Shown piece by piece: positions 12,097 to 37,878 of a stretch of DNA of 50,222 nt. The DNA is taken from positions 1 to 50,222 of the forward strand of contig JAIEAO010000057.1 of assembly GCA_029071345.1 (NCBI GenBank), read 5' to 3'. Every line of letters begins with the position of its first letter. The stretch's first letter is position 1. The position numbers were made by a program, and so were the translations under genes. The notes under the pieces are model-generated. The model made no database searches. It had not been told where the DNA came from and was given only the letters and a program-made list of their open reading frames with translations. The stretch comes from Muribaculaceae bacterium (GTDB lineage Bacteria > Bacteroidota > Bacteroidia > Bacteroidales > Muribaculaceae).

Positions 12097-12122
12097 AATA
12101 GGCGGAGTGTATAAAATTCCTA

Positions 12123-22465: not shown

Positions 22466-22515
22466 AATTTGAGATTAATTTTTGGTCTTTATGTATTCCG
22501 CCGGGGTCATCCCGG
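22466..22515. repeat. 50-bp direct repeat, outer copy of regulator 3' end
   Basis: A perfect 50/50 match to 23641-23690, the last 12 to 13 codons, stop and 9 nt downstream of the propeller/AraC regulator. Here it is non-coding. It marks the far end of an inserted DUF1016 gene cassette. Confidence 0.95.
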
Positions 22516-22568
22516 GCCTCTAAAGAACGTGATTAATAAACGCAAATGATTGCGCATTATTACACCAA

Positions 22569-23618
22569 TCAACCATTATCTGACCTATTGGCAATCTCCC
22601 GATTAAAGGTCTTTATTTCATCTGAAATAAGTTGTTTGAGTTCTTTCTGCGGAACTATAAGTTTATATTCGGCAACTCCGATTGGTTTGGTGAAACCATC
22701 CAACGCGAGTTCCACCTCTACGTTATCTTTCTCTGCGCATAAGATGATACCGATTGATGGATTCTCATCAGGGCCTTTTTCCAGCTTATCAAGCAGCGAA
22801 AGATATACATTCATCTTCCCTACATATTCCGGCTTAAATTCGGAAATTTTCAGGTCAATGGCCACAAGCGAGCGTAATCCCCGGTGGAAGAACAGTAAAT
22901 CTACCTTATAGTCCTTGCCATTGTAACACAATACGTGCTGGTTGCCGATATAGGTGAAACCTTGCCCGAGTTCAAGCAGGAATTGTTTGATCTTCTCTAC
23001 CAATCTGCGTTCAAGTTCCAGCTCAAGTATCGGCTCCGTCACACCGAGAAAGCCCATACAATATGAATCCTTAAACACCTCATTGGCATAAGCGGCCTGA
23101 AGTTCCGGGAGTGTCAGCGCAAAATTGTTAGATGTGTTGGTTTCAGGCTGATGCAGATGCATCTCCATCTTTATTGCATTAACCAGCAAATCACACTTCC
23201 ATCCTTTTTCAATGGTTTTGTCTGCGTAGTACTGGATAGCATTGTCATCATCCTTCAGTCTACTCATCAACTGATTTATGTGTCTCCACGGCAAAACTGC
23301 AACGCTGCGTTGCAGTTTTTGTTCGGAATCCTTGAATCGAACATAAAATTGTTTCATGTACCACAGATTCCTCACTGACATTCCCATTTTAGGATATCTC
23401 ATTTTCAAGTCGCCGGAGAGGCGTTTTACCACGCTGTCACCATGCTTGCTGTCAAGTTTACGCTCATACAAAAGCTTGCCTATCTCCCAATGCATTTCAT
23501 TAGAAGTTGCGACGATTGCACGGGCAGCTTTGCTTCGGGCAGTTTCAATAACTCCGACAGCCTGTCGGAGTATTTCGTTATATTCTGACTCGTTTTGAAT
23601 CGAGACGATGGTTTTCAT
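22569..23618 (-). CDS. DUF1016 (YhcG-type) PD-(D/E)XK nuclease, inserted cassette
   Basis: 349 residues: an N-terminal DUF1016 helical domain (about 10-170; EIGKLLYERKLDSKHGD, RNLWYMKQFY) and a C-terminal PD-(D/E)XK nuclease domain with Asp240 in YKVDLLFFH and Asp255-x-Lys257 in LVAIDLKISEF. The family is widespread and sporadic, often near restriction or other defence genes; its substrate is not established. The gene splits the regulator and sigma genes and lies between two perfect 50-bp direct repeats that copy the regulator's 3' end. Only 22 bp separate its ATG from the nearer repeat, leaving room for a ribosome site but no promoter, so it should be read through from the regulator gene. 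Strong sign of recent single-gene insertion. Confidence 0.92.
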   Translation of the reverse strand: MKTIVSIQNESEYNEILRQAVGVIETARSKAARAIVATSNEMHWEIGKLLYERKLDSKHGDSVVKRLSGDLKMRYPKMGMSVRNLWYMKQFYVRFKDSEQKLQRSVAVLPWRHINQLMSRLKDDDNAIQYYADKTIEKGWKCDLLVNAIKMEMHLHQPETNTSNNFALTLPELQAAYANEVFKDSYCMGFLGVTEPILELELERRLVEKIKQFLLELGQGFTYIGNQHVLCYNGKDYKVDLLFFHRGLRSLVAIDLKISEFKPEYVGKMNVYLSLLDKLEKGPDENPSIGIILCAEKDNVEVELALDGFTKPIGVAEYKLIVPQKELKQLISDEIKTFNREIANRSDNG

Positions 23619-23640
23619 TTTACGAAATTATCAATAGAGG

Positions 23641-23690
23641 AATTTGAGATTAATTTTTGGTCTTTATGTATTCCGCCGGGGTCATCCCGG
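23641..23690. repeat. 50-bp direct repeat, in-gene copy (regulator 3' end)
   Basis: The coding copy: it contains the stop codon at 23650-23652 and the last codons of the propeller/AraC gene. Identical to 22466-22515. Flanking bases differ immediately on both sides. Confidence 0.95.
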
Positions 23691-26472
23691 TGATGTTTTT
23701 GAAGTGGCGGAAGAAGGATGAGCGCGATGAGAATCCGCACATTTTCGACATCGCCGTGAGCGTATATTTCGACAGATCCTCTTCGGCCACGAGGCGTTTG
23801 AACTCGTTGACACGATAGTTGTTCACATAGTCGTAATAGCTCTTTTTCATATATTGGTTGAAGATGTAAGAGAGGGAATGGCTTGTGGTGCCTGCCATCT
23901 TCGCGAGGTCTGCGCTCTTCAGGTCGGGATTGATGAATGGGCGGTCCTTACGCATGATCTCGTCAATGACCTTGAGGATGCGTTTGCACTCCTCGTCGGA
24001 AAGGCTTGTGGTGCGGTAACGTCGTGTCTCGGCATCAGAGACAGGGGCGGTCGCATCCTCGGTATTATTAGCGGCATTCACAGCCTCCTCCCATGCGCGT
24101 TCCTCCTCTTCTTCGCGGCGCCGACGGCGCATCACGATATAATATGCGACGTAGCAGGCCACGAACAGGCCTATGGCCGAGAGGATAAGCACTAATGCGA
24201 TGTTCACTCTCCTATCCTTATGTATATATATGAGTGTCTCGTTGGCCGTATGGCCGGGGAGACGCAGATGCAAAGTGTAATCGCCGGGCTGCAGGTCGTA
24301 ATAATGTATCGACTTTCCTCCTCCTACGAGTTGCCACGACATATCATACCCTTCGAGCATATATTCTATCTGGAAATGCTCCGGGTTGATATATGTAAGG
24401 TTGCCGGCATAGATCGCAAGGTCACTTTCCTTAGAATTGAGCGTGATATGGTTCTTCCCGCCGTTCTGCGTCAGACGGCTATAGATACTCTCGCCGTTGC
24501 TGTGCAGGTCGGTGACGGTGATCCGTTTGTCTTCATGCTTCATATATTCCTTCACCTTCGCCGGGTCGAGCTTGAGCAGACCGGAGGTATTTCCCATCCA
24601 GATGTTACCATCCTCGTCGGCGACGGGCTGACATAGAGTGAAAACCGGGTGTGGAATGCCGTCAGCGGCGGTGTAGAGGTGCATATCATCGGAATCGGGG
24701 ATGCAGACTGCTCCGACACCCGTACCGAGCCATTTCATACCGTTGAAGTCTTCGGTAATGAACGTCACCATCCTGTTATCCGACACCCTTATCCCGGTCA
24801 GCGGCACCACGGAAGTGAGATTGAGGTTAGAGCGGTAGACATCGCCGCGGTCAGGCACGAAGTAGAGGTTATGCTCCTTATCTTCGTAGACATCACGGAT
24901 TTTCTGCTTGTTGATGAACCCTTTCGGGAAGCGGTCGCTGCTCACGTTCTTGCCGTTCCATATCGCCATGCCGTTTTCCGTGCAAACCCATCCGCGCCCT
25001 GTGCTGTCGAAGAAAAGCTCGTAAACATTCCCTTTCGGCAGCTGCGAATTCTCGGGAGTATAGTGCGCCACCTCCGTGCCGTCGCGGAAACGGTGCAGAC
25101 CGTCGGAAGCGCCCACCCACATCGAGCCGTCGGGCCCCTCCTCGATAGCGAACACCGAGCCGGAATCAAACCGCTCCTGATGGTTTCCGAACGAACCGAT
25201 GCGCAACGTCGCGGGGTCGAACAGATACATTCCGCCGTTATAGGTGCCGATATAATATTTTCCTCCTATACGCGTAATGCAGAAGATGATATTAGAGCGG
25301 ATGTCAGGACGCTGGAAATGAGCGGTGCGCCCGGTGGCCTCGTTCACATAAAAGAGACCGTCGCGCGTACCGATAAGTTTCTCGCTGCCGTTGACCGCAA
25401 CGGCGCGCACGGCATAGTCGGCGGTATTGATGAATCCGGGATATGTGTAGACCTCGAAGATGTCGTTGACTTTCGGCGTATAGTCCACACCCATCTGATA
25501 ATAGCCAACCCAGAGCAACCCCTGGTTGTCGACAAGCATCGAATAGACCGAATTGGAGCGTAGTTTTAGCGGCGACGACGAGGCATTGATGCGCTTCTCG
25601 ATCTCCCCTTTCGCAAGATCATAAAATACCACACCCTCGCCATCCATCGAGATGTAGAGCCTTTCAAGAGGCGGATCGGCGGAAAGTGATGTGATCACGC
25701 CGTCGCCTACATCTATCGGCTGGCCGTAAGCGCGCGTTTTTATAGAGAATGGAATCACCCGACCACCCGACGTGCCGATATACAGCATACCGTTGACCAT
25801 GGCGAGTTTCGTCACATCTTTTGAGGGCGGGAGGGGATAGTTCTCGGTCGTGCCGGTGGAAGGATCGAGAAACACTACCGACCTCGGCGTGAGGGCCCAG
25901 ATTTTGCCGGAATGGTCATGCACGAGGTCAACCACTTCGTTGTCCGTCGACATTATATCGGCCGACACCGGGCGGTGCACCAGAGTGTTCTTGCCCGCAT
26001 TATAGACATATACCCCCTGACGGGTGCCTAAATAGAGATCCGATCCGTCTCCGGATATGGCTGAAATCGCGAAATCAAGTTTGTCGGGCAGAATCTTTGT
26101 CATCTCCGAGGCCCCCGGGGTGAGTTTATAGAGCCCTTGAGGATTCGCGACATATACATTTCCGGAAACGTCGAAGATGTCGTTGACACGGAGCGATGTG
26201 CCCGAACGACCCGGGAAACGGTAACGCGCGATCTGGTTGCCGTCGAAGCGGTCGAGACCGGTTTCCGTGCCGAACCATACAAAACCCTTGCTGTCCTTGT
26301 AGATGCTGTTTACAAGCTGGTCGCTGAGATTATCCGACGTGGAAAGGGTGCGCATCTGTGCATTGGCCTCAAAGCTTGCGGTGCAAAGCAGAATAAGGAG
26401 CATCGCAACGACACTCTTTAACATTTCTGATATGTTATCATAAAACCAGCTGACAAGTTTCACAGATTGCAA
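23650..26472 (-). CDS. membrane-tethered propeller-AraC transcription regulator (HTCS-like, no kinase)
   Basis: 940 residues. A signal/anchor segment (about 17-39) precedes a large periplasmic sensor of Reg_prop propeller blades (about 45-650: IYKDSKGFVWFGTETGLDRFDG, GKIWALTP, GSMWVGASDGLHRF, GNIWMGNTSGLLKLDP) and a Y_Y_Y domain (about 670-755). One transmembrane helix (about 757-780, IALVLILSAIGLFVACYVAYY) and a basic/acidic linker follow, then an AraC DNA-binding domain (about 845-940). The histidine kinase and receiver domains of hybrid two-component systems are absent, so ligand binding must reach the DNA-binding domain through the membrane as in SusR-type regulators. Met17 is an alternative start. 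It probably senses the PUL oligosaccharide and switches on the sigma gene or the divergent operon. Confidence 0.88.
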   Translation of the reverse strand: MQSVKLVSWFYDNISEMLKSVVAMLLILLCTASFEANAQMRTLSTSDNLSDQLVNSIYKDSKGFVWFGTETGLDRFDGNQIARYRFPGRSGTSLRVNDIFDVSGNVYVANPQGLYKLTPGASEMTKILPDKLDFAISAISGDGSDLYLGTRQGVYVYNAGKNTLVHRPVSADIMSTDNEVVDLVHDHSGKIWALTPRSVVFLDPSTGTTENYPLPPSKDVTKLAMVNGMLYIGTSGGRVIPFSIKTRAYGQPIDVGDGVITSLSADPPLERLYISMDGEGVVFYDLAKGEIEKRINASSSPLKLRSNSVYSMLVDNQGLLWVGYYQMGVDYTPKVNDIFEVYTYPGFINTADYAVRAVAVNGSEKLIGTRDGLFYVNEATGRTAHFQRPDIRSNIIFCITRIGGKYYIGTYNGGMYLFDPATLRIGSFGNHQERFDSGSVFAIEEGPDGSMWVGASDGLHRFRDGTEVAHYTPENSQLPKGNVYELFFDSTGRGWVCTENGMAIWNGKNVSSDRFPKGFINKQKIRDVYEDKEHNLYFVPDRGDVYRSNLNLTSVVPLTGIRVSDNRMVTFITEDFNGMKWLGTGVGAVCIPDSDDMHLYTAADGIPHPVFTLCQPVADEDGNIWMGNTSGLLKLDPAKVKEYMKHEDKRITVTDLHSNGESIYSRLTQNGGKNHITLNSKESDLAIYAGNLTYINPEHFQIEYMLEGYDMSWQLVGGGKSIHYYDLQPGDYTLHLRLPGHTANETLIYIHKDRRVNIALVLILSAIGLFVACYVAYYIVMRRRRREEEEERAWEEAVNAANNTEDATAPVSDAETRRYRTTSLSDEECKRILKVIDEIMRKDRPFINPDLKSADLAKMAGTTSHSLSYIFNQYMKKSYYDYVNNYRVNEFKRLVAEEDLSKYTLTAMSKMCGFSSRSSFFRHFKNITGMTPAEYIKTKN

Positions 26473-26543
26473 TAGAATATTAGTTCGGCATTAAGATTAG
26501 CTCACATCTCCGCATTTATGCGACACGGTGAAATTTAAGTAAG

Positions 26544-26575
26544 CAAAGATAACGTTTTTTTCAAAAATATCGAAA
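26544..26575 (-). promoter_or_regulatory. possible primary-sigma promoter of the propeller-AraC gene
   Basis: On the minus strand: TTTC, 20 nt, TATCTTTG (perfect TAnnTTTG), about 72 nt before the regulator's first ATG. The -33 box has one mismatch. Confidence 0.45.
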
Positions 26576-26619
26576 TGTTTCAACAGATTAACTATCTTTT
26601 AACCCCTTTTGACAATTAT

Positions 26620-26650
26620 TTTGAGTGAGTTTTGATGCTTGCGCGTATTA
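26620..26650 (+). promoter_or_regulatory. candidate ECF sigma promoter on divergent strand
   Basis: TTTGAGTG, exactly 16 nt, CGTATTA, 124 nt before the flavoprotein ATG. It is the only strong plus-strand copy of the PUL motif and ties the divergent gene to the same regulon. Confidence 0.65.
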
Positions 26651-26673
26651 AAGAAAGGAAATTAGGAGGATTA

Positions 26674-26705
26674 TTTGCCAGCATGTGCAATTTGAAGTAA
26701 ATTTG
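26674..26705 (+). promoter_or_regulatory. primary-sigma promoter of the flavoprotein gene
   Basis: TTTG, 20 nt, TAAATTTG: both boxes perfect for the Bacteroidetes primary sigma consensus. It lies downstream of the ECF-type site, so the gene could have a constitutive and an induced start. Confidence 0.65.
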
Positions 26706-26774
26706 CATACTGAAAATTATTCGGTATGAAATGCCGCGAAGAGCTACAGATCTCTCCTATAACCCGAAATTGTT

Positions 26775-28082
26775 ATGACCACTACAGACACCAATGGATA
26801 TACGATGGCTGAAGCCATCAATGAGGCAAAACGCTGCTTGAACTGCAAGGTTCCGCAATGCCGCAAGGGATGTCCGGTTGACCAGAACATCCCGGAATGG
26901 ATACATGAACTTTCGATGGGTAACCTCGGAAACGCGATGGCTTCAATCAACGAGCGCAGCAATCTTCCGGCAGTCTGCGGACGCGTCTGCGCTCACGAGC
27001 GACAGTGCGAGGGCAACTGCATCCTCAATAAGAAGGAACCCGGCACTCACATCAATATCGGTAAACTTGAACAATTTATCGCTGATTTCGACACATCTAT
27101 GAATCTGACCCGCGAACCCATTCCGGTGAAAGACCGGGGTCGTGTAGCGGTGATCGGCAGCGGTCCTGCCGGTCTCACCGTGGCCGGCGAACTTGCTCGT
27201 CGCGGCTTCGATGTGGAGATCTTCGAGATGGAGGGGGAAGCTGGCGGAGTGCTGCAGTTCGGCATTCCGGAATACCGCCTGCCCAAATCGGTGGTGGCTT
27301 CTGAAATCAAGAAAATCACCAACTTGGGCGTGCGCATCAACCTCCGCAAGACAATCGGCCCCGACATGAATGTCGATGAGCTTTTCGACCTTGGATTTGA
27401 CGCAATCTTCATGGGAACGGGAGCCGGCAAACCGCGACGCTTACCAATCGACAACCCCGGAGGAGCGAAAATCTGGATGGCGATCTATTTCCTGCGTCTT
27501 TTCAGCCTTTACAACTCGGGGCTCGTTTCGCGCGAGGAGGTACCCGTAACGGAAGGTGACCATGTTTTTGTGGTCGGATGCGGCAACACGGCGATGGATG
27601 CCGCGCGCAGTGCCGTGCGTCTCGGCGCGGGGAAAGTGACTATCGTTTACCACCGCGACATCTCGCGTATGGCTGCCCTGAAATCGGAATATAACGAAGC
27701 CGTGGAAGAGGGTGTGCAGTTTATGTGGAACGCATCGGTTATCGCAGCCGGCACCACCGATGGCCGTCTCTCTTCAATCACCATCGATCAGGAGGGAAAG
27801 CAGTTTACCGTCGATGCCGACCGCCTCTTTCTGGCTGTAGGCAGCCGCCCCGCTTCGCGCATCGTCTCTACGACCGAAGGAATCGAGACCGACGACAAGG
27901 GATATGTGCTTGTACGCGAGCATCCTTACGGAATGACCACCCGCAAGGGGGTATTCGCCGGCGGTGATGTAACCAACCGCCCGGCCACAGTGGTCAACGC
28001 TATGGCCGATGCCCGCAAGGTGGCCGACGGAATCGCCAAATATATCGATGCCGTGAAGCTGATGGAGGAGATCGAAGCTTAA
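26775..28082 (+). CDS. glutamate-synthase-beta-like NAD(P)H flavoprotein
   Basis: 435 residues. The N-terminal Fer4_20-type domain has cysteines CLNCKVPQCRKGCPV and CGRVCAHERQCEGNC (about 22-85), which bind two [4Fe-4S] clusters. A Rossmann FAD site (VIGSGPAGLTVAGELARRG, about 125-145) and an NAD(P) site (VVGCGNTAMDAARSAVRLG, about 262-280) follow, with GVFAGGDV near the end. This matches the small subunit of glutamate synthase and stand-alone relatives that pass electrons between NAD(P)H and ferredoxin-like partners. No large subunit is in the window, so calling it gltD would be unsafe. It heads the divergent strand and has both primary and ECF-type promoters. A redox-balancing role during uronate use is a guess. 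Confidence 0.88.
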   Translation: MTTTDTNGYTMAEAINEAKRCLNCKVPQCRKGCPVDQNIPEWIHELSMGNLGNAMASINERSNLPAVCGRVCAHERQCEGNCILNKKEPGTHINIGKLEQFIADFDTSMNLTREPIPVKDRGRVAVIGSGPAGLTVAGELARRGFDVEIFEMEGEAGGVLQFGIPEYRLPKSVVASEIKKITNLGVRINLRKTIGPDMNVDELFDLGFDAIFMGTGAGKPRRLPIDNPGGAKIWMAIYFLRLFSLYNSGLVSREEVPVTEGDHVFVVGCGNTAMDAARSAVRLGAGKVTIVYHRDISRMAALKSEYNEAVEEGVQFMWNASVIAAGTTDGRLSSITIDQEGKQFTVDADRLFLAVGSRPASRIVSTTEGIETDDKGYVLVREHPYGMTTRKGVFAGGDVTNRPATVVNAMADARKVADGIAKYIDAVKLMEEIEA

Positions 28083-28114
28083 TGCTTCGATAAGTATAAA
28101 GGATAAAGTATGAA

Positions 28115-28127
28115 GTCGCGGAGCGAC
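28115..28127. repeat. short hairpin GTCGC-GGA-GCGAC
   Basis: 5-bp perfect arms around a GGA triloop. The same design, GTGCC-GGA-GGCAC, occurs at 28200-28212 in the same spacer. Confidence 0.6.
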
Positions 28128-28199
28128 GAGATTGTGGTTAACCCCACATGATGGAGCGAAGCGACTGAGAGTGGGGAAGGGGAAATCCAAAAAAATTGA

Positions 28200-28212
28200 G
28201 TGCCGGAGGCAC
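28200..28212. repeat. short hairpin GTGCC-GGA-GGCAC
   Basis: 5-bp perfect arms around a GGA triloop, between the flavoprotein gene and kduD, upstream of a 20-bp palindrome. Confidence 0.6.
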
Positions 28213-28228
28213 GATGTTATGAATCAGC

Positions 28229-28248
28229 GGACGCGATATATCGCGTCC
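28229..28248. repeat. perfect 20-bp palindrome
   Basis: GGACGCGATATATCGCGTCC followed by CTACTGAAAACT. The join of palindrome to CTGAAA heptamers is the same as before the heparinase-like gene, read on that gene's sense strand. Confidence 0.9.
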
Positions 28249-28250
28249 CT

Positions 28251-28284
28251 ACTGAAAACTTAAAACTTAAATCAGAAAACTAAG
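28251..28284. repeat. heptanucleotide array (ACTGAAA/ACTTAAA)
   Basis: ACTGAAA, ACTTAAA, ACTTAAA, TCAGAAA, then ACTAAG. It forms the leader directly before the kduD ATG at 28287. Confidence 0.85.
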
Positions 28285-28286
28285 AT

Positions 28287-29087
28287 ATGATTCTCAACAA
28301 TTTCTCACTCGAGGGTAAGGTAGCCCTCGTAACCGGTGCCGCTTACGGTATCGGTCTCGCAATAGCACAGGCTTTCGCTGAGGCAGGTGCAAAAATCGTA
28401 TTCAACTGCTCACGTCAGGAGACTGTGGACCGCGGTCTCAAAGCCTACAAAGAACTCGGCATCGACGCCAAAGGTTATCTTTGCGACGTAACCGACGAAG
28501 AGGCCGTTAAGGCTATGGTTGCCGACATCGAGAAGACCGTAGGCACAATCGATATCCTCGTTAACAATGCCGGAATCATCAAACGTATCCCGATGGAGGA
28601 GATGAACGTTGAGGACTTCCGCCGCGTGGTTGACGTGGACCTCATCGCCCCCTACATCTGCGCCAAGGCTGTGATCCCCGGCATGATCAAGAAGGGGCAT
28701 GGCAAGATCATCAACATCTGCTCGATGATGAGCGAGCTCGGCCGCGAGACGGTGAGCGCATACGCGGCTGCCAAGGGTGGTCTGAAGATGCTTACGCGCA
28801 ACATCTGCTCCGAATTCGGCGAGCACAACATCCAGTGTAACGGCATCGGCCCGGGCTATATCGCTACCGAGCAGACCGCCCCCCTCCGCGAACGTCAGGC
28901 CGACGGCAGCCGCCACCCCTTCGACTCATTCATCATCTCCAAGACTCCGGCAGGACGCTGGGGCACCCCCGAAGACCTCATGGGCCCGGCAGTGTTCCTC
29001 GCGTCGGACGCTTCCGATTTCGTTAACGGTCAGGTGCTTTATGTCGACGGCGGTATCCTCGCCTACATCGGCAAGCAGCCGAAATAA
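28287..29087 (+). CDS. kduD: 2-dehydro-3-deoxy-D-gluconate 5-dehydrogenase / gluconate 5-dehydrogenase (SDR)
   Basis: A 266-residue classical short-chain dehydrogenase: TGAAYGIG cofactor motif at 16-23, NNAG at about 93-96, catalytic Ser146, Tyr159 and Lys163 (YAAAK), and the C-terminal PAVFLASDASDFVNGQVLYVDGG. By family it interconverts 3-deoxy-D-glycero-2,5-hexodiulosonate (DKII) and 2-keto-3-deoxygluconate (KDG) with NAD(H). Related proteins are often named gluconate 5-dehydrogenase. The neighbouring kdgK, eda and kduI genes favour the KduD role. The product KDG passes to the kinase encoded two genes downstream. The leader is a heptamer array preceded by a palindrome. Confidence 0.9.
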   Translation: MILNNFSLEGKVALVTGAAYGIGLAIAQAFAEAGAKIVFNCSRQETVDRGLKAYKELGIDAKGYLCDVTDEEAVKAMVADIEKTVGTIDILVNNAGIIKRIPMEEMNVEDFRRVVDVDLIAPYICAKAVIPGMIKKGHGKIINICSMMSELGRETVSAYAAAKGGLKMLTRNICSEFGEHNIQCNGIGPGYIATEQTAPLRERQADGSRHPFDSFIISKTPAGRWGTPEDLMGPAVFLASDASDFVNGQVLYVDGGILAYIGKQPK

Positions 29088-29095
29088 AATTTGTG

Positions 29096-29115
29096 CTAAA
29101 TGCTTTAGCATTTAG
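29096..29115. repeat. 20-bp hairpin in kduD-permease spacer
   Basis: CTAAATGC-TTTA-GCATTTAG, perfect 8-bp arms, beginning 9 nt after the kduD stop. It argues that the permease start lies downstream of it. Confidence 0.7.
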
Positions 29116-29131
29116 ATTAAACTATATTGCT

Positions 29132-30553
29132 TTGGAACAGGTATTTTCTTATATCATCGGGCTTGGAGCCGCCGTGATGATGCCGGTGATCTTCACGATT
29201 CTCGGTGTCTGCATCGGCATCAAACTCGGAGATGCCCTCAAATCGGGGCTTAAGGTAGGTGTCGGCTTCATCGGTCTCTCGATCGTGACCGCGCTGCTCA
29301 CCTCCGCCCTCGGTCCCGCGCTCAACGAAGTGGTGGATATCTACCACCTTCAGCTCAAAGTGTTCGACATGGGTTGGCCCGCGGCAGCAGCCGTGGCATA
29401 CAACACAGCCGTAGGCGCGTTCATCATCCCCGTCTGTCTCGGTGTCAACCTCCTCATGCTTCTCACCAAGACCACGCGCACTGTCAACATCGACCTCTGG
29501 AACTACTGGCACTTCGCCTTCATCGGTGCGGTGATCTACTTCGCCAGCGATTCTCTGGCCTGGGGATTCTTCGGCGCCATCATCTGCTATATCATCACCC
29601 TCGTTTTGGGAGACATGACTGCCAAGAAATTCCAGAATTTCTATAAGGATATGGACGGCATCTCGATTCCGCAGCCTTTCTGCGCCGGTTTCGCGCCGTT
29701 CGCCTGGATCATCAACAAAGGTCTCGACAAGATTCCGGGCATCGAGAAGTTAGAGATCGATGCCGAAGGAATGAAGAAGAAATTCGGACTCCTCGGCGAG
29801 CCCCTTTTCCTCGGTGTCATCGTCGGTATCGTAATCGGCTGCCTCACCTGCAAATCGTGGGGTGAGATCGTCGATAAAATCCCTTACATCCTCAGCCTCG
29901 GTATCAAGATGGGAGCGGTGATGGAGCTTATCCCCCGCGTTACAGTGCTCTTCATCGAAGGTCTGAAGCCTATCAGCGACGCCACACGCCAGCTGATCGC
30001 CCGCAAGTTCAAAGGTGCCGACGGCCTCAACATCGGCATGAGCCCCGCGCTCGTGATCGGTCATCCCACAACCTTGGTTGTGTCGCTCCTCCTCATCCCC
30101 GTAACTCTGCTTTTGGCCGTAATCCTGCCGGGCAACCAGTTCCTCCCTCTCGCTTCGCTGGCCGGTATGTTCTATGTCTTCCCCCTCGTGCTCCCCTTCA
30201 CCAAAGGAAACGTGCTTAAGACCTTCATCATCGGTCTTATAGTGCTTGTCGGCGGTCTTTACATGGTCACCAACCTCGCTCCGGCATTCACGCTGGCGGC
30301 CAAGGATGTGTATGCAGTAACGGGCGATGCCGCCGTAGCCATTCCCGCAGGTTTTGAAGGTGGAAGCCTCGACTTCGCATCAAGTCCGCTGGCATGGATG
30401 ATTTACCAGTGCACTGAAAATCTACGCTGGATAGGTGCAGGGATATTGGTAGTGATCACAATGGGAATGGTCTGGTGGAACCGCGTTCACATCATCCGCA
30501 ACCAGAAAGCGATGATCGCCGCCGACTCCGACCGCATCCAGACCACAGAGTAA
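29132..30553 (+). CDS. EIIC-GAT-like (galactitol-family) permease, probable uronate transporter
   Basis: A polytopic membrane protein with about 10-12 hydrophobic segments, related to PTS galactitol IIC subunits (MMPVIFTILGVCIGIKLGDALKSG; GWPAAAAVAYNTAVGAFIIP; DGLNIGMSPALVIGHPT). I start it at the TTG at 29132 (473 residues, Leu/Met-Glu-Gln-Val-Phe). The frame is open from a GTG at 29093, but those 13 codons cover a hairpin. No IIA or IIB subunit is encoded nearby, and a separate KDG kinase follows, so substrate probably enters unphosphorylated. Position within kduD-kdgK-eda-kduI makes a deoxy-ketouronate or KDG the likely cargo across the inner membrane (inference). Confidence 0.85.
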   Translation: MEQVFSYIIGLGAAVMMPVIFTILGVCIGIKLGDALKSGLKVGVGFIGLSIVTALLTSALGPALNEVVDIYHLQLKVFDMGWPAAAAVAYNTAVGAFIIPVCLGVNLLMLLTKTTRTVNIDLWNYWHFAFIGAVIYFASDSLAWGFFGAIICYIITLVLGDMTAKKFQNFYKDMDGISIPQPFCAGFAPFAWIINKGLDKIPGIEKLEIDAEGMKKKFGLLGEPLFLGVIVGIVIGCLTCKSWGEIVDKIPYILSLGIKMGAVMELIPRVTVLFIEGLKPISDATRQLIARKFKGADGLNIGMSPALVIGHPTTLVVSLLLIPVTLLLAVILPGNQFLPLASLAGMFYVFPLVLPFTKGNVLKTFIIGLIVLVGGLYMVTNLAPAFTLAAKDVYAVTGDAAVAIPAGFEGGSLDFASSPLAWMIYQCTENLRWIGAGILVVITMGMVWWNRVHIIRNQKAMIAADSDRIQTTE

Positions 30554-30557
30554 AGGC

Positions 30558-30585: not shown

Positions 30586-30598
30586 AATAGTGATAAAT

Positions 30599-30635: not shown

Positions 30636-30657
30636 AAACTGAAAATCAACAATAACA

Positions 30658-31680
30658 ATGAGCAAAATAGTAACCCTCGGAGAAATTATGCTCCGACTTT
30701 CGCCCGCCGGATGCAGCAGATTCGTGCAGGTAGACAATTTCGATGTAATATGGGGCGGCGGTGAGGCCAATGTGGCCGTGAGCTGCGCCAACTATGGTCA
30801 TGACGCTTATTTCGTCAGCAAACTTCCCGAACACGAGATCGGTCAGGCTGCTGTCAACGCACTGCGCCGTTATGGTGTGCACACCGACTTCATCGCCCGT
30901 GGCGGCAACCGCGTCGGCATTTATTACTGCGAGACAGGTGCTTCGATGCGCCCCTCTAAGGTGATCTACGACCGCGCCGGCTCTGCAATCGCCGAAGCAG
31001 ATCCCTGCGATTTCGATTTCGACAAGATCATGGAGGGTGCCGACTGGTTTCACTGGAGCGGTATCACCCCCGCCATCAGCGACAAGGCTGCCGAACTGAC
31101 ACGCCTTGCCTGTGAGGCTGCAAAGCGTCACGGCGTAACTGTATCGGTCGACCTCAACTTCCGTAAAAAACTATGGACTAAGGAGAAAGCACAGAGCATC
31201 ATGCGTCCGCTGATGCAGTATGTCGATGTATGCATCGGTAATGAGGAGGATGCGGAACTTTGCCTCGGCTTCAAACCGGATGCGGACGTAGAGGGTGGCG
31301 ACACCAACGCCGAGGGATACAAGGGTATCTTTAAAGCTATGGCTAAGGAATTCGGCTTCAAGTATGTGGCTTCGACACTTCGCGAGTCGTTCTCTGCAAC
31401 CCACAACGGTTGGAAGGCTATGATCTTCAACGGTGAAGATTTCTATGAGAGCAAGCGCTATGACATCAACCCGATCATCGACCGCGTCGGTGGCGGCGAT
31501 TCCTTCTCGGGCGGTCTTATCCACGGTCTGATCACTATGCCGACTCAGGGCGAGGCACTCGAATTTGCAGTTGCAGCTTCCGCCCTCAAACAGACTATTC
31601 CGGGAGATTTCAATTTAGTAACAACAGCCGAGGTCGAGGCCCTCGCAGGAGGCGCGGCCAACGGCAGAGTGCAGCGATAA
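30658..31680 (+). CDS. kdgK: 2-keto-3-deoxygluconate kinase (PfkB family)
   Basis: 340 residues of the ribokinase/PfkB fold: the N-terminal GGGEANVAVSCANYG substrate loop (33-47) and the anion-hole/base motif RVGGGDSFSGGL with catalytic Asp281. By family and context it phosphorylates KDG with ATP to 2-keto-3-deoxy-6-phosphogluconate (KDPG) in the cytoplasm. eda, the aldolase for that product, follows after a 64-bp spacer made of heptamers. Start is supported by an A-rich leader directly after the TGACA periodic repeat. Confidence 0.9.
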   Translation: MSKIVTLGEIMLRLSPAGCSRFVQVDNFDVIWGGGEANVAVSCANYGHDAYFVSKLPEHEIGQAAVNALRRYGVHTDFIARGGNRVGIYYCETGASMRPSKVIYDRAGSAIAEADPCDFDFDKIMEGADWFHWSGITPAISDKAAELTRLACEAAKRHGVTVSVDLNFRKKLWTKEKAQSIMRPLMQYVDVCIGNEEDAELCLGFKPDADVEGGDTNAEGYKGIFKAMAKEFGFKYVASTLRESFSATHNGWKAMIFNGEDFYESKRYDINPIIDRVGGGDSFSGGLIHGLITMPTQGEALEFAVAASALKQTIPGDFNLVTTAEVEALAGGAANGRVQR

Positions 31681-31714
31681 TTAGGCGTTAGGAGTTATGG
31701 ACACTCCCTACTGC

Positions 31715-31742
31715 AAACAGAAAACCTAAAACTGAAAACTGA
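31715..31742. repeat. heptanucleotide array (AAACTGA family)
   Basis: AAACAGA, AAACCTA, AAACTGA, AAACTGA ending 2 nt before the eda ATG. The first part of the spacer (ttaggcgttaggagttatggacactcc) is the 3'-side boundary module of the same repeat system. Confidence 0.85.
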
Positions 31743-31744
31743 CA

Positions 31745-32410
31745 ATGGCAAGATTCGATAAATTACAGGTGCTCGCCAAGATGGGCGCGGCGCCGATGGT
31801 GCCGGTGTTCTATCACAAGGATGCCGCTACGGCATGCAGCGTAGTCAAGGCATGCTACGACGGAGGCGTTCGTGCTTTCGAGTTTACCAACCGTGGCGAT
31901 TTCGCCCACGAGGTGTTTGCCGAGGTGGTGAAATTCGCCGCCAAGGAATGCCCTGAAATGGCTGTGGGTGTTGGTTCGGTTGTTGACCCCGGCACTGCAT
32001 CGCTCTACATTCAGATGGGTGCCTGCTTCGTGGTCGGTCCCCTCTTCAACCCCGAGGTTTCCAAGGTCTGCAACCGTCGCGGTGTTCCCTACACACCGGG
32101 TTGCGGCTCGGTTAGCGAAGTCGGTGCGGCTCAGGAGACTGGTTGCGACCTCTGCAAAGTATTCCCCGGCGACGTTCTCGGCCCCAAATTCGTGAAAGGT
32201 ATGATGGCCCCGATGCCCTGGAGCAAGCTGATGGTCACCGGAGGCGTGGAGCCTACCGAAGAGAACTTGACAGCATGGTTCAAGGCCGGCGTATACTGCG
32301 TGGGTATGGGCTCGAAACTCTTCCCCAAAGACCGCGTAGAGGCCAACGACTGGCAGTATGTAACCGATAAATGTAAAGAAGCACTTCAAATAATAGCTAA
32401 CGCAAAATGA
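31745..32410 (+). CDS. eda: KDPG / KHG aldolase
   Basis: 221 residues of the class I KDPG aldolase family: Glu46 in RAFEFTNRG, Arg50, and the Schiff-base Lys138 in [10 protein letters not shown]. It splits 2-keto-3-deoxy-6-phosphogluconate to pyruvate and glyceraldehyde-3-phosphate. Its TGA stop overlaps the ATG of kduI (ATGA at 32407-32410), so the two are translationally coupled. It closes the cytoplasmic uronate route begun by kduD and kdgK. Confidence 0.93.
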
Positions 32411-33327
32411 AAAAGATATTTTTAAGCCTCGCCCTCATGGCCGCGGCTGCTACAGGGATGGCACAGACCTCTTACTCGATCATGCGCGCCTGTCATCCCG
32501 ACGACGTGAAGCATTACACCAACGGCCAACTCCGTTCGCATTTCATGATGCCCAAGGTGATGGAGCAGGATAAGGTCAACCTCACCTATTCGATGTATGA
32601 CCGCATCATCTTCGGCGGCACAGTGCCCGTGACCAAGACCGTCGAACTTGAGACCATCGACCCGCTGAAGGCCGAGTATTTCCTTGAACGCCGCGAACTT
32701 GGCGTGATCAATACGGGAGGTCCCGGCGTGGTTAACGTTGACGGCAAAGATTATGAGCTCAACTTTAAGGACGCCCTCTATGTGGGCCGCGGCAATAAGA
32801 AGGTGACATTCCGTAGCAAGGATGCCGCCAACCCCGCCAAGTTCTACATCAACTCTACTCCCGCTCACAAAGAGTATAAGACTCAGCTCATCACCATCGA
32901 CGGCCGCAAGGGTAGCATCAAGGCTAACCGCATGCACGCCGGATGTCTCGAAGAGAGCAACGACCGCTATATCAATCAGCTCATCACGAAGAACGTGCTT
33001 CAGGAAGGTCCCTGTCAACTTCAGATGGGTCTGACCGAGCTGATGCCCGGATCGGTATGGAACACCATGCCGGCCCACACCCACGACCGTCGCGTCGAGG
33101 CTTACTACTACTTCAACGTACCCGAAGGCAACGCCATATGCCACCTCATGGGTGAGAAAGAGGAAAACCGCCTCATTTGGCTCCACAACGAGCAGGCCGT
33201 GATGGCACCCGAATGGTCGATCCACGCCGCCGCCGGCACATCAAACTACATGTTCATCTGGGGCATGGGAGGTGAAAACCTCGACTACGGCGACATGGAC
33301 AAAATCCAATACCTCGAAATGAAATAA
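32407..33327 (+). CDS. kduI: 5-keto-4-deoxyuronate isomerase with predicted signal peptide
   Basis: 306 residues. The KduI cupin core is clear, with the zinc ligands in [16 protein letters not shown] (His224, His226, Glu231) and His273 in [18 protein letters not shown]. It isomerises 5-keto-4-deoxyuronate (DKI) to DKII. Oddly, the protein begins [22 protein letters not shown], a typical signal peptide with an AxA-like cleavage site near residue 20. The well-known cytoplasmic KduI proteins are about 280 residues and lack this. Translation is coupled to eda by an ATGA overlap, so the start is firm. If exported, the isomerisation happens in the periplasm and DKII is what must be imported, probably by the EIIC-like permease in the same run. 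Confidence 0.92.
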
Positions 33328-33335
33328 CCCCCAAG

Positions 33336-33370
33336 CCTTTAGTTCTTAGGCTTTAGGCTTTAGATATTAG
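33336..33370. repeat. heptanucleotide array (CTTTAGG family)
   Basis: CCTTTAG, TTCTTAG, GCTTTAG, GCTTTAG, ATATTAG, 9 bp after the kduI stop. Confidence 0.85.
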
Positions 33371-33390
33371 CCAAAAGGGTCTACAAGTAT

Positions 33391-33424
33391 GAGGCAGCTT
33401 GACTTCGGATAGTTAGGCTGCCTC
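33391..33424 (+). terminator. possible terminator hairpin after kduI
   Basis: GAGGCAGC and GCTGCCTC, perfect 8-bp arms with an 18-nt loop. It has no clear T-run. A second dyad, CACCTCG (33444-33450) with CGAGGTG (33482-33488), follows. The rest of 33425-33571 shows nothing recognisable. Confidence 0.45.
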
Positions 33425-33571
33425 TGATGCATTTAAGTCTCCCCACCTCGTTTAAGGAAGCGGGGGATTCGTGGGCGGAATCGAGGTGTTCGTTGAATAG
33501 TAGATATTAGGACGGCACGTAATTCACTATTTTTTTATTATCTTAGCTGAATATTTTCTAATTCTAACGAT

Positions 33572-33973
33572 ATGAAATCATTTAAATATCTTGCTCTGGC
33601 GACGGCGTTGTGTGCTTCGGCGCAGATGTGGGCACTTGATTTTCCTTGGCTCTCTTTCAAGATGAAGGATGCGTCGGAAATCACTGTAGCCGCCGATAAT
33701 CTCGTGATGAATTACTCTGACGGCAATCTCGTGCTGACCTCCGGCAATGTCAATGAAACCCTCCCTGTGGCTGACATAGCTTCGATGAGTTTTACCAATC
33801 AGCCCGCAGGCGTGGAGGAGATTGTAGCCACTCCTTCCGAATCGGCTACCTATTACACTTTAAGGGGTGTGAATGTGGGTGAATTTGCATCCGCTGATGA
33901 TGCACGCCGTGAGCTCCCTTCGGGCACATATATCGCTAAATCAGCATCCAAATCTTTCAAGGTAATTTTCTGA
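33572..33973 (+). CDS. small secreted protein with C-terminal sorting-like tail
   Basis: 130 residues: a signal peptide (about 1-21), a short beta-rich segment (LVMNYSDGNLVLTSGNVNETLPVADIASMSF) and a tail YYTLRGVNVGEFA...LPSGTYIAKSASKSFKVIF. The tail has the same layout as the ends of both tandem paralogs at 10375-13707 (YFNLQG...GLYIKRQG...KVIF), a Bacteroidales C-terminal signal-like module. Function is unknown. It is 4 bp upstream of the Cthe_2159-like gene and surely co-transcribed with it. Confidence 0.75.
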   Translation: MKSFKYLALATALCASAQMWALDFPWLSFKMKDASEITVAADNLVMNYSDGNLVLTSGNVNETLPVADIASMSFTNQPAGVEEIVATPSESATYYTLRGVNVGEFASADDARRELPSGTYIAKSASKSFKVIF

Positions 33974-33977
33974 CGCT

Positions 33978-35915
33978 ATGAAGAAATACTTTTTTATCGC
34001 AGCATTAACCCTGACAGCCATCATGGCTCAGGCGCAATCAATAAATTTCATTAAGGATGGCGTCACCTATAATTTCCCCGCCGCAACAGCCGGGGAGATG
34101 ACCTTTGACGGCGCGGCCGTAAATGTTGCCGGTCGAACCTTTGATCTTTCGCAGTGGTCGCTCATCAAGGTAACCGACTCGGAAGTGGCTTCCAAGACGG
34201 TGGAAATCACTTACTCCGGCAATTCCGGCGCAGTGATGGTAGCGGGCGATATAGCTCCTTATATCGAGGTATCCACCGATGGCGCGCACGTCACGGTTAC
34301 GCAGTCGGATCTCGTTTCAGAGTCCACTTGTGGCGAAATCACCTACGTCCTCAAAGGTGAGGCTGCCGACGGTTCGTTTAACTTAACAGGTTCATACAAA
34401 GCCACTATCGAGCTGCAGGGCGTTACGCTCACCAACCCATCGGGTGCGGCACTCAACATCACCAACGGCAAACGCATTGCAGTTAGCGCAAAGAACGGCA
34501 CCGTCAATTCGTTTACCGATGGCGCCGGTTCGCAGAAAGGTGCAATCGCCTGCACGGGTCATCTGGAGTTCAAAGGTAAAGGTGAATTGAACGTTAAAGG
34601 TAACAAATCGCACGCCATCTACGCCAAGGAGTATGTGGAAATCAAGAACCTGACCCTCAATATCACCGGCTCTAAGAAAGACGGCATCAACTGTGCGCAG
34701 TATTTCCTGATGGAGAGCGGCAACGTCACCATCGCCTCACCGGGCGACGACGGCATCCAGACCTCGTTCAAGGATGATGCAGACCGCGAGGCGGAGGATA
34801 CGGGCACAATCACCATCAAGGGCGGCACGCTGACCGTAACCATATCGGCCGATGCCGCGAAGTGCATCAAGGCTGATGCCGATGTTATCATCGCAGGCGG
34901 CACTCTCCACCTCACCACCAACGCCAACGGCATCTGGGACAGCACCAAACTGAAGACCAAGGCTTCTGCATGCATCGGTGCTGACGGCAATGTGGAGATC
35001 AACGGCGGCACACTCAACCTGAAGGCCACCGGCAGCGGAGGCAAGGGCATCTCTTGCGACGGCGTCTTTACCTCCAACGGCGGTAACACCACAATCGCTA
35101 CCACAGGCGGTATGCTCGTCTACTCCAACGGTACGCTCAACCATAACTACACCTCATCGGCGGACCGTATCAACTCCGATTATAAGTCTTCGGCAAAGGG
35201 TATCAAAGCCGATGAGGGTGTCGTGATCAACGACGGCGAGTTTTACATCACCACTGCTTCAAACAATGCCGAAGGGATAGAGAGCAAAAAGACCCTCGAT
35301 ATCAAGGGTGGAAAAATCTTCGTGAAGGCGTACGACGACGGCATCAACTCGTCGAACGACTTCAGCGTGTCGGGCGGCGACCTCACCGTAATCTCTGTTG
35401 TGGGCGATGGTCTTGACTCCAACGGTAACCTCTATATCAGTGGCGGTTATATCCGCACGATGGGTTCCGGCGGCATGGAAATGGGTCTCGATGCTGCCAC
35501 GGAAGATGGTTGCGCGGTCTACATCACCGGCGGAACATTCCTTGCCTTCGGAGGCAGCAACACCTATCCCACCAAGAGCGGATCGACGCAGGCATTCGTA
35601 AAGGCCACAGGCTCCATCACAGCCAACACCGAGGTATCGGTAAGTGCCGGGAGCACCGTGCTTGCCACCTTCACCGTGCCATCAGAATACACCCAGAGCA
35701 CTGGCAGCGGTCCGCGCTCGGAAGATCCCTCAGAACCGATCACACGTGGCCCGGGCAACGGCCCCGGCGGAGGCGGCTGGGGACCCGGCGGATCATCAGG
35801 CAGTGGCTCGCTCATGATCAGTTGCCCCGAACTCAAATCCGGCACCTCCTACACCATCACCAACAACGGCACCACAACCACCGCCACCGCCGCCCTAACC
35901 TCCTCCGGCCGCTAA
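33978..35915 (+). CDS. Cthe_2159-like (DUF4353) secreted carbohydrate-binding beta-helix protein
   Basis: 645 residues: a signal peptide (about 1-19), an N-terminal module (about 20-120), then beta-helix repeats rich in Asp/Gly/Asn (KKDGINCAQYFLMESGNVTIASPGDDGIQTSF; ADADVIIAGGTLHLTTNANGIWD; KGISCDGVF; AYDDGINSSNDFSVSGG). This is the pattern of the Cthe_2159/DUF4353 family, whose founding member binds polygalacturonate and cellulose with calcium. A Gly/Pro-rich low-complexity stretch (about 585-615) precedes the end. It supports a pectin-like substrate for the locus. It ends 29 nt before a strong bidirectional terminator. Confidence 0.82.
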   Translation: MKKYFFIAALTLTAIMAQAQSINFIKDGVTYNFPAATAGEMTFDGAAVNVAGRTFDLSQWSLIKVTDSEVASKTVEITYSGNSGAVMVAGDIAPYIEVSTDGAHVTVTQSDLVSESTCGEITYVLKGEAADGSFNLTGSYKATIELQGVTLTNPSGAALNITNGKRIAVSAKNGTVNSFTDGAGSQKGAIACTGHLEFKGKGELNVKGNKSHAIYAKEYVEIKNLTLNITGSKKDGINCAQYFLMESGNVTIASPGDDGIQTSFKDDADREAEDTGTITIKGGTLTVTISADAAKCIKADADVIIAGGTLHLTTNANGIWDSTKLKTKASACIGADGNVEINGGTLNLKATGSGGKGISCDGVFTSNGGNTTIATTGGMLVYSNGTLNHNYTSSADRINSDYKSSAKGIKADEGVVINDGEFYITTASNNAEGIESKKTLDIKGGKIFVKAYDDGINSSNDFSVSGGDLTVISVVGDGLDSNGNLYISGGYIRTMGSGGMEMGLDAATEDGCAVYITGGTFLAFGGSNTYPTKSGSTQAFVKATGSITANTEVSVSAGSTVLATFTVPSEYTQSTGSGPRSEDPSEPITRGPGNGPGGGGWGPGGSSGSGSLMISCPELKSGTSYTITNNGTTTTATAALTSSGR

Positions 35916-35944
35916 TCTCGCTACACCCGCCAATACCTCCTGAC

Positions 35945-35990
35945 ATAAAGAGACCTCTTCAACAGCGATGAAGAGGCCTCTTTATTGTTT
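35945..35990. terminator. strong bidirectional intrinsic terminator
   Basis: AAAGAGACCTCTTCA and TGAAGAGGCCTCTTT, 15-bp stem with one G-T type mismatch, loop ACAGCGA, A/T tracts on both sides. It lies between convergent genes and should stop both the plus-strand run and the polA-side transcript. Confidence 0.85.
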
Positions 35991-36038
35991 CCAAGATTGT
36001 GGCGCAAACGAAGTGCACGCTTATCTAACCAGCAGGGG

Positions 36039-36077
36039 ATTAGTGGGCGTCGAGCCAGTTGGTGGCGACACCGCAGG
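36039..36077. repeat. 39-bp direct repeat, outer copy of polA 3' end
   Basis: Matches the polA 3' end at 37840-37878 in 38 of 39 bases. Read as codons, the single difference is synonymous (GGC to GGT, Gly). It now lies downstream of the inserted AlbA_2 gene and encodes nothing. It is probably the original polA end. Confidence 0.95.
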
Positions 36078-36089
36078 TGATTCGAGAAT

Positions 36090-37817
36090 CTAATTATTAT
36101 TTTCAGGAGTAAATAAAGAGACTCCTTTTGCAGTTAGTTTATAAGCTTGTTTAGCACTTGTAGGTTTATCTGGATTCGTCATTTCAATATACTTAAAATC
36201 TATTAAAGGTAAGATTATCTTCCTTTTTAGATCTTTTGTGGATGTATAATCCAGCTTCATGGAAAGTTCCTTGGCTGAAAGGTTACTTGCATTTAAAAGT
36301 TCTAGAAGGTCAATTGTGGAGACCATCATTCCTGCTGCATTACCTTTGAATCGGGAACTATTCCATACTTGGACAAATAGTTGTTCAAGAAGTTGTCCAA
36401 GTTGAACTTTATCGATTATAACAGATTGATTAATAGACTCATGAACTTGGACAACATTCTGTCCAAGTATCTGTCTAAGTCCTTCTCCGATATGATCTTC
36501 TACATCATTAATAACATCTACAACTTTATTTACAAAACCATCTCTGCAAGGAATGGTCATTAAGAAATAGGTTCTGTCATCATCGGTTTCTATGGAAGCT
36601 CTTTCCGAGCCATTGTTTTTAAGAGCTTTTTGAATAGTTGGTATCCCGGTTGCTCTACCCTCTGTCAAATCCAATTCTTTTAGAAAATCACCTAACCTTC
36701 TATTGCGATATCTCCTGGCCTTTAATTTTCTTGCTGATTTTATAGCTTCCGAAGTTATGGATCTGTCAGGCCCAGCATAGCTTAGAATATCGACATGGGT
36801 AGGTTCTATGGTAATTTCCACCGGTTCTCGTTCCTGATAGTCTCGATGATAAAGGGCGTTTACAACCGACTCTTCAAACGATTGATAAGGATAGTTGTAT
36901 ATTTTATCTGACTTTTCATCATCTGTAGGCTTGACAATACGTTTCTTTATGACATTAGTACGAAGATATGACAAACTCTCTTTAATCATTTTAGGAATTG
37001 GTCCGGTAATCTTTGGCACTTCAATCATCAAATCAGGATTTTCAACGCTTCCTTCCGGGAAAATAACTATATCAATCTGCGTCACAGGAAAAAACTTCTC
37101 AGGATGTTCGCAAAACATCATTGCAGCAACATTCTTGATAAGACGATTCTCTGTTGGACCTGTCAATAAATCCATTTCATCCAGAACCTCTATAAGCGGA
37201 CGCTCTATGAAATTATCCGCTAATTTACTTCTTACAGCCTTAAGATGTTCATATACTAAAACCCCTGAAATGTCTTCAATCTTGATAGATTCATTTCCTC
37301 GTTCATCAAATGGTATGCGGTTAGCAAGAGCCCTAACCTCATCAAGAGTTTCGCCTCTGGCCTCAATAGTAGAGGATTTGCTCCGAACATAATATTTCAG
37401 CGGAGATTTATTTTTTGCCACAACACTCTCTGCAACACAATAAGGTCTATTAGGTCCTGTAGGTACCCAAATAGCAAGTATGGTCTGGCCATCCACTTCC
37501 TCTACCGATACCTTCGTATTGTAGGATATGGATTTTAGATTAGAAGATGAGATCTTAGCATCATAACCCACCATATCCTGAAGTATACCGTCAATAGATT
37601 CTAACGGTATGCCTTTTACAGGACGCTTCGCAATGCCATTATCGTCCTGCTCCACCCCTACAAGAATATACCCGCCTCCTGTATTATCCAAATCCGTAGC
37701 AAAAGCACATATTGTATGGTATATTTTATCAGGATTCCATCCTTTTTTGAATTCTATACGGTCTGACTCAACCTTTCTTTTATTGAGTAAATCCTCGATA
37801 TTTATTGGTAATGCCAT
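36090..37817 (-). CDS. AlbA_2-domain ATP-binding protein, inserted cassette
   Basis: 575 residues. An N-terminal AlbA_2 (Schlafen-like) domain (about 15-135: ESDRIEFKKGW, FATDLDNTGGGYILVGVEQDDNG) is followed by an ATPase-like C-terminal half (HATPase_c_4 type: YPYQSFEESVVNALYHRDYQEREPVEITIEPTHVDILSYAGP, about 315-360; GRATGIPTIQKAL, about 395-407) and a winged-helix-like end (ELSMKLDYTSTKDLKRKIILPLIDFKYIEMTNP). Such proteins are usually called putative transcriptional regulators and are frequent in variable and defence-rich loci; no function is proven. The gene is visibly more AT-rich than its neighbours. It fills the space between two 39-bp copies of the polA 3' end almost completely (12 bp and 22 bp left), with no room for its own promoter. 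Confidence 0.9.
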   Translation of the reverse strand: MALPINIEDLLNKRKVESDRIEFKKGWNPDKIYHTICAFATDLDNTGGGYILVGVEQDDNGIAKRPVKGIPLESIDGILQDMVGYDAKISSSNLKSISYNTKVSVEEVDGQTILAIWVPTGPNRPYCVAESVVAKNKSPLKYYVRSKSSTIEARGETLDEVRALANRIPFDERGNESIKIEDISGVLVYEHLKAVRSKLADNFIERPLIEVLDEMDLLTGPTENRLIKNVAAMMFCEHPEKFFPVTQIDIVIFPEGSVENPDLMIEVPKITGPIPKMIKESLSYLRTNVIKKRIVKPTDDEKSDKIYNYPYQSFEESVVNALYHRDYQEREPVEITIEPTHVDILSYAGPDRSITSEAIKSARKLKARRYRNRRLGDFLKELDLTEGRATGIPTIQKALKNNGSERASIETDDDRTYFLMTIPCRDGFVNKVVDVINDVEDHIGEGLRQILGQNVVQVHESINQSVIIDKVQLGQLLEQLFVQVWNSSRFKGNAAGMMVSTIDLLELLNASNLSAKELSMKLDYTSTKDLKRKIILPLIDFKYIEMTNPDKPTSAKQAYKLTAKGVSLFTPENNN

Positions 37818-37839
37818 CAGTTGATATTTTTGTGTGGGT

Positions 37840-37878
37840 ATTAGTGGGCGTCGAGCCAGTTGGTGGCGACGCCGCAGG
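37840..37878. repeat. 39-bp direct repeat, in-gene copy (polA 3' end)
   Basis: The coding copy: the polA stop codon (37841-37843) and its last 12 codons. The inserted gene's ATG is exactly 22 bp away, as in the DUF1016 cassette. Confidence 0.95.

Follow-up and report, generated by a model that had tools for sequence, protein, structure and literature searches.

Two enclosed genes in a Muribaculaceae contig

The window analysed here, a stretch of 50,222 nucleotides from a Muribaculaceae bacterium (GCA_029071345.1, contig JAIEAO010000057.1), is an entire contig (G000:C143) from a draft genome of 2.56 Mb and 86% completeness, one of the 111 searched for its genus. It contains two minus-strand genes, one encoding a DUF1016/YhcG protein and the other an AlbA_2 protein, each lying between two copies of the 3′ end of the host gene next to it. 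We refer to these arrangements as cassettes and to the enclosed gene as the cargo, and we consider it probable that the cassettes entered by insertion with long target duplication.

Cassette 1 is bounded by an exact 50-bp direct repeat, for which a crude equal-base estimate at the length of the window gives a random expectation of about 1e-21. The inner copy (23641..23690, minus strand) comprises the final codons and stop of a two-component hybrid with an AraC-type output domain plus 9 bp, while the identical outer copy (22466..22515, minus) lies past the cargo gene. According to Pfam, the host (23650..26472, minus) is intact, and the cargo directly downstream of it on the same strand (22569..23618, minus) encodes a 349-aa protein with DUF1016_N and YhcG_C, the latter a PDDEXK nuclease domain. 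The top PADLOC match of this protein is PDC-S02, and its DUF1016 relatives occur mainly in records labelled Muribaculaceae or other Bacteroidales. The cargo is separated from the repeats by a 5′ spacer of 22 bp (23619..23640, minus) and a 3′ spacer of 53 bp (22516..22568, minus); the former carries, immediately 5′ of the ATG, TAATTTCG, which we take by eye to be promoter-like, and about 12 bp upstream of the ATG can be aligned with several homologues located at other sites.

Cassette 2 follows polA in the same way, both genes again being on the minus strand. Its inner repeat copy (37836..37878, minus) covers the end of polA including the stop, and its outer copy (36035..36077, minus) matches at 41 of 43 positions (95%), the sole coding difference being silent; by the same crude estimate, such a pair is expected about 5e-13 times. 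The host, DNA polymerase I (37841..40633, minus), is intact, and the cargo (36090..37817, minus) encodes a 575-aa SLFN_AlbA_2 protein with HATPase_c_4 and Fic-like_C regions, both assignments being from Pfam. Past the outer copy, a terminator-like hairpin was recognized by eye (35947..35983, minus); as a hairpin also occurs soon after the polA stop at loci L046 and L058, that of the window is probably polA's own terminator, pushed away by the insert.

Since the host stop codon lies inside the host-adjacent repeat copy in both cassettes, both hosts are preserved. Each insert has a single long open reading frame (ORF), overlapped by shorter ones on the opposite strand, and the Pfam matches of the long ORF in each interval are neither recombinase nor transposase; nor is the cargo a restriction-modification gene by Pfam. 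The first-pass annotation of the window was therefore right about two cassettes of one plan, with repeats, hosts and orientation as it had described, and about the missing recombinase.

Empty sites and recurrence in Bacteroidota

Comparison of related genomes uncovered two sites at which the uninterrupted target exists in single copy. An AlbA_2 gene stands behind guaA in five separately assembled species (G063, G065, G066, G090 and G091), while other genes follow guaA in G067, G068, G071 and G072. Between G065 and the AlbA_2-free G068, guaA aligns at 87.8%, and the alignment resumes from position 1596 at guaA -71 and continues downstream at 92.7%, such that the two genomes differ by a 1.6-kb insert and an exact doubling of 72 bp of guaA. 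In G066 (L389), by contrast with the 72 bp of G065, about 20 bp of the guaA end together with the terminator and promoter are repeated past AlbA_2, and G091 has no second guaA end; these differing right-hand sides indicate that the locus was rearranged more than once. The identities of AlbA_2 and guaA run parallel in most of ten species pairs, so the insert is old there, with the exception of G065 and G063 (AlbA_2 96.7%, guaA 89.6%). The second site lies in G004, where one base plus a DUF1016 ORF up to its stop is bracketed by two identical 33-bp repeats of the segment in which an FMN oxidoreductase gene and a short-chain dehydrogenase gene overlap, both genes being whole. When rejoined, the flanks match G106 (800 bp, 80%) and G075 (768 bp, 75%) in one piece with no difference in length, whereas G004 itself matches them in two pieces having exactly 33 bp in common. 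The single-copy empty sites at guaA and at the two-gene overlap show insertion plus duplication.

An early look at 41 loci of the DUF1016 and AlbA_2 families within the genus had found many with spanning repeats. For the main count, a gene was scored as enclosed if a repeat spanning 28 bp or more, with identity of 80% or better, lay no more than 700 bp from either gene end with no second gene enclosed, duplicates being removed. Family loci were the best-scoring or were taken down the ranking rather than at random, all from Bacteroidota and most from Bacteroidales, and genomes of at least 99% completeness were sought for the order set. Nine duplicates (8 from the named genomes, 1 from the order set) and 7 loci without an ORF were dropped, as were 29 with flanks under 300 bp (AlbA_2 11, DUF1016 10, PDDEXK_2 4, RhuM 3, GNAT 1). 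A simple ORF caller was used throughout, which erred at one plasmid locus at least by calling an opposite-strand ORF and may have misjudged other single loci.

By this measure, DUF1016 genes lie between repeats at 22 of 102 testable loci (9/45 in the genus, 5/29 in further named genomes and 8/28 across the order), compared with 6 among 416 sampled genes, of which six one is itself a DUF1016 gene (Fisher p 5.6e-12). The 22 include the gene of the window (L003), and the order set includes a locus of its own genome (L405). AlbA_2 (7/37, p 1.7e-5) and RhuM (3/26, p 0.012) are likewise enriched, and no acetyltransferase was enclosed among 26 under the same criterion. At 71 longer loci, repeats flank 15 of the cargo genes and 4 of the 250 other genes present there (p 8e-8); as neighbours are so seldom flanked, a local abundance of repeats does not account for the excess. 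Duplicating insertion thus prefers a few candidate defence families, and the insertion mode that had been proposed from the window alone is borne out, as a recurrent one, by the two empty sites and by this excess over sampled genes and neighbours; the repeat scan of Bacteroidales suggested at that stage was run on samples and returned the excess.

A repeat scan of the window's own genome, on contigs chosen partly for known content, gave 15 rows, of which 5 are defence or toxin-antitoxin candidates (the window twice, L119, L444 and L448). The further cases comprise a DUF1016 gene behind dprA, a HepT-like/nucleotidyltransferase pair at a tRNA-Gly gene and a gene with a weak Abi_2 match. The remaining 10 rows are four from the window, L104, L120, L122, L454 and two small-gene rows of L448; by eye, the window's four and those of L104 and L122 look like interspersed palindromic repeats. 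These are of the GGGACGCGATATATCGCGTCC and GCGACACTTGC...GCAAGTGTCGC types (window 8384-8427, 10173-10347 and 11948-12110, besides L104 and L122), and one of them adjoins an IS200-like Y1_Tnp gene, a combination that resembles a REP/RAYT system. A 78-bp repeat of 88% identity (45-121 and 5970-6047), lying 3′ of one gene and 5′ of another, carries a CG-rich palindrome and TTACTTATTACT runs and is probably another interspersed repeat. Rfam found one tRNA in the window, at 50153-50222, cut off by the contig end. When the thresholds of the scan were raised to 36 bp and 90%, 400 kb drawn from three genomes of the genus besides this one yielded no cassette, a limit on the generality of the pattern.

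Several results weigh against insertion with long target duplication as the general account. The window's own two sites are without a sufficiently close empty relative, the polA matches of relatives (at most 77% identical) stopping short of any AlbA_2 match with different DNA past polA. About four fifths of DUF1016 loci have no repeat; these may be old, decayed or the product of another route. PDDEXK_2 genes are enclosed at only 2 of 26 loci, and the five sampled hits other than DUF1016 are DUF2807, MatE, IS200-like transposase, hexapeptide transferase and DUF6198 genes. Finally, the positive chromosomal genomes are all draft assemblies, and among annotated genes on complete plasmids of various phyla, a repeat was present at only 1 of 10 DUF1016 loci and was degenerate (82%). 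In that case, a Polaromonas plasmid (L459), DUF1016 lies behind hsdS, and a 38-bp segment close to the end of hsdS (about 2397-2434) recurs past the DUF1016 stop (about 3584-3621) with a score reached by 0 of 100 shuffles, possibly an old insertion scar outside Bacteroidota; other plasmids have DUF1016 genes inside type I restriction operons. The draft state of the assemblies and the plasmid count would suit assembly artefact or ordinary tandem duplication, which we nevertheless find scarcely credible, given that the copies are non-identical in 29 of 34 hits (identity below 100 after rounding), that AlbA_2 recurs behind guaA in five independent assemblies, that empty sites exist and that neighbouring genes are seldom flanked.

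To these contrary points must be added the differences between repeat copies, which lean silent, 51 of 87 falling at codon position 3. Under rough nulls with one free and one constrained copy, which by our own estimate already predict about 46-50% at that position, the lean has p 0.01 to 0.07, and the pairs counted include the doubtful L066 and L080. At L066, a 394-bp direct repeat of 98% identity (2087-2479 and 3674-4067) encloses small ORFs, one copy being at a gene 3′ end. An excess above the null suggests that exchange with other alleles may have affected some copies, and it would be expected if cargo and gene end had been imported together, with homologous recombination sealing one side and illegitimate joining the other, the two copies then being donor and recipient alleles; such import is known as homology-facilitated illegitimate recombination. 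Loci such as L077 (9/10 silent) and L134 (6/8) fit this explanation, as does the closer identity of AlbA_2 than of guaA between G065 and G063, which shows cargo to be exchangeable at an occupied site. However, the bias is modest and mixed, differences at L078 and comM/L149 being mostly or wholly non-silent, and as proof of allele import it was downgraded in view of the null. Import also leaves unexplained both the first insertion and the exact repeats that span two gene ends and have empty relatives; with both genes whole in G004, a donated gene end is not an easy explanation. We therefore regard import as an unlikely origin of the cassettes.

Targets, insert ends and a possible route

Insertion with duplication uses many different targets. 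By Pfam, the hosts include polA, the AraC-type hybrid, dprA, pfkA, guaA (two genomes), comM and a BatA-like gene, in addition to the oxidoreductase/dehydrogenase pair; hsdR and an AlbA_2-like gene were hit at their 5′ ends, and a shortened DUF1016 ORF sits behind an OmpR-type regulator. At L078, the start of one Bro-N gene has been duplicated twice, once ahead of an AlbA_2 gene and once ahead of a RhuM gene, an arrangement of nested insertions. At L420, a DUF1016 gene lies inside a 6-O-methylguanine DNA methyltransferase gene with 159 bp (98%) on both sides, splitting it into a left ORF with the N-terminal domain and a right ORF with the DNA-binding domain, so that gene interiors are hit too. 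At L444, the HepT-like/nucleotidyltransferase pair occupies the tRNA-Gly 3′ end, of which 40 bp reappear beyond the pair, and at L448, a 79-bp repeat (99%) surrounds a gene whose Abi_2 match falls under the Pfam cut-off. Host and cargo point in the same direction in the named cases except pfkA (L069) and L448, the tRNA case not being judged. The precise 3′-end targeting first envisaged does not hold, as insertions are seen not only at the 3′ ends of protein genes but also at their starts, within one gene, at the overlap of two, at the end of a tRNA gene and in intergenic DNA, and cargo is mostly a single gene, as had been stated, with the pair at tRNA-Gly departing from this.

The use of the 3′ ends of tRNA-Gly, guaA, comM, dprA and polA, with the gene end restored, is what would be expected of integrase-type elements lacking their own integrase, whose repeats would be attL and attR sites acted upon by a tyrosine recombinase in trans. 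Against this, the repeats track the local target and vary by site in both sequence and length (31-235 bp over 31 hits with at least 85% identity), recurring only for the same target in related genomes (guaA at L165/L169; Bro-N at L078/L134 and L006/L013), gene starts, interior and intergenic DNA are also used, and the ends of 18 inserts have no common sequence by eye. Nor was a shared core seen in the repeats by eye, a motif search not having been run. We judge such elements very unlikely to be the source.

Across 19 cassettes, the gap between the cargo start codon and the inner repeat ranges from 0 to 325 bp, and in 12 of them the far repeat begins no more than 17 bp past the cargo stop codon. 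The start codon had been placed 22 bp from the repeat in both window cassettes, which is correct for cassette 1 and for cassette 2 only if its repeat is trimmed to the last 39 bp (18 bp with the full 43); with such a range of gaps, the spacing is a coincidence, and a fixed 22-bp rule is ruled out. Among 120 DUF1016 locus pairs, 103 align over 50 bp or less upstream of the ATG and in 116 the alignment ends within the interval from 76 bp ahead of the stop to 10 bp past it, a weak test, as non-coding DNA at 70-90% identity is often unalignable anyway. Inverted matches at the ends are of 3 bp or less in 16 of 18 cassettes, the exceptions being L317 (5 bp) and window cassette 1 (6 bp), a slight excess given that 1.3% of mismatched pairs reach 5. 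The borders of the latter (22516-23640) read CCTCTA/TAGAGG, a match found in 0.3% of mismatched pairs and absent from the other inserts. Microhomology between target and insert ends was likewise scarce, 11 of 14 cassettes lacking any common word of at least 9 bp; the others are L407 (9 bp), the repeat-rich L284 and L015 (14 bp). At L015, 14 bp of the target occur a third time, as a partial copy (2505-2518), and encode the last residues of the DUF1016 protein, which ends differently in relatives; this is a lone hint that the insert arose through copying synthesis and not cut-and-paste.

Insertion with long target duplication would involve a small gene unit, consisting of a start region and an ORF and often ending at or near the stop codon, with about 30-160 bp of target, occasionally more, copied onto both sides, presumably with no dedicated recombinase. 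Tentatively, and at somewhat less than even chances, we propose that the target is broken or a fork stalls, that short incoming DNA is captured through end joining or polymerase template switching, and that synthesis restarting upstream of the break duplicates the segment. Survivors would be favoured where the duplicated segment covers a gene end, since the gene stays whole; long duplications make insertions at gene edges harmless, so survivors would cluster there without targeting and mimic 3′-end specificity. The cargo, judging by its families, would be kept because it protects or addicts the host.

Relation to known systems

Long-target-duplication insertion of restriction-modification genes was reportedly described by Nobusato et al. 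in 2000 and Furuta et al. in 2010. Passages of two papers describe it with long, variable duplications on the order of 100 bp (PMC3874152, PMC3031569), and part of a third gives an example from H. pylori (PMC1643837), so the mode is not undescribed, which had been held possible, although the first-pass annotation had itself pointed to restriction-modification genes. The present cases resemble those insertions in having no linked mobile element and a long, variable duplication of about 100 bp, and in being found by comparison of related genomes. They differ in their cargo, which is DUF1016/YhcG, AlbA_2 and RhuM genes with single HepT/nucleotidyltransferase and Abi_2-like cases, in that the hosts are often housekeeping genes and the insert often ends near the stop codon, and in that they come mainly from Bacteroidales, the source of most loci examined. 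Among titles and abstract openings, with most subscription papers and all preprints outside the scope, no paper tied this mode of insertion to DUF1016, AlbA_2 or RhuM.

Integrative elements at the 3′ ends of tRNA and other genes, including cis-mobilizable elements of the CIME type, form another known class. The cassettes share with them a restored gene end and flanking direct repeats, and differ in that the window inserts have no recombinase, no common core is seen by eye and further kinds of target are used.

The link of the cargo to defence, noted at first sight, is upheld for DUF1016 and RhuM, whose best PADLOC matches are the defence candidates PDC-S02 (two DUF1016 proteins tried) and PDC-S05 (two RhuM proteins tried); AlbA_2 gave partial matches only, to pAgo-associated models. 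The cargo families thus probably include anti-phage defence candidates, as judged by family match. Parts of one paper present PDC-S02, PDC-S05 and PDC-M05, the last a nucleotidyltransferase with a HEPN protein, as phage-defence candidate families from "guilt by embedding", among single-gene candidates many of which lie outside known defence islands (PMC12988326). By description, PDC-M05 and the HepT-like/nucleotidyltransferase pair of L444 are alike.

Insertion with long target duplication may be how the embedding of defence genes happens. The pattern may account for defence genes located in unrelated operons, with the duplication scar as a sequence-level signature of each entry, and scanning for scars permits cargo to be discovered without a guess at function, as the HepT/nucleotidyltransferase and Abi_2-like cases came from the repeat scan. 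In addition, the mechanism becomes testable in culturable Bacteroidales. A bolder proposal, which we think rather unlikely, is that an active recombinase-free or trans-acting route in Bacteroidales inserts bare, ORF-sized defence and toxin-antitoxin genes at sites throughout the chromosome with 30-160 bp of duplication, that this is the physical process by which single defence genes become embedded in unrelated operons and come to lie behind core genes, and that its traces, such as the DUF1016 gene after hsdS on the Polaromonas plasmid, extend beyond the phylum. The PDC entries of PADLOC denote gene families, whereas the present finding concerns the manner in which their genes are inserted.

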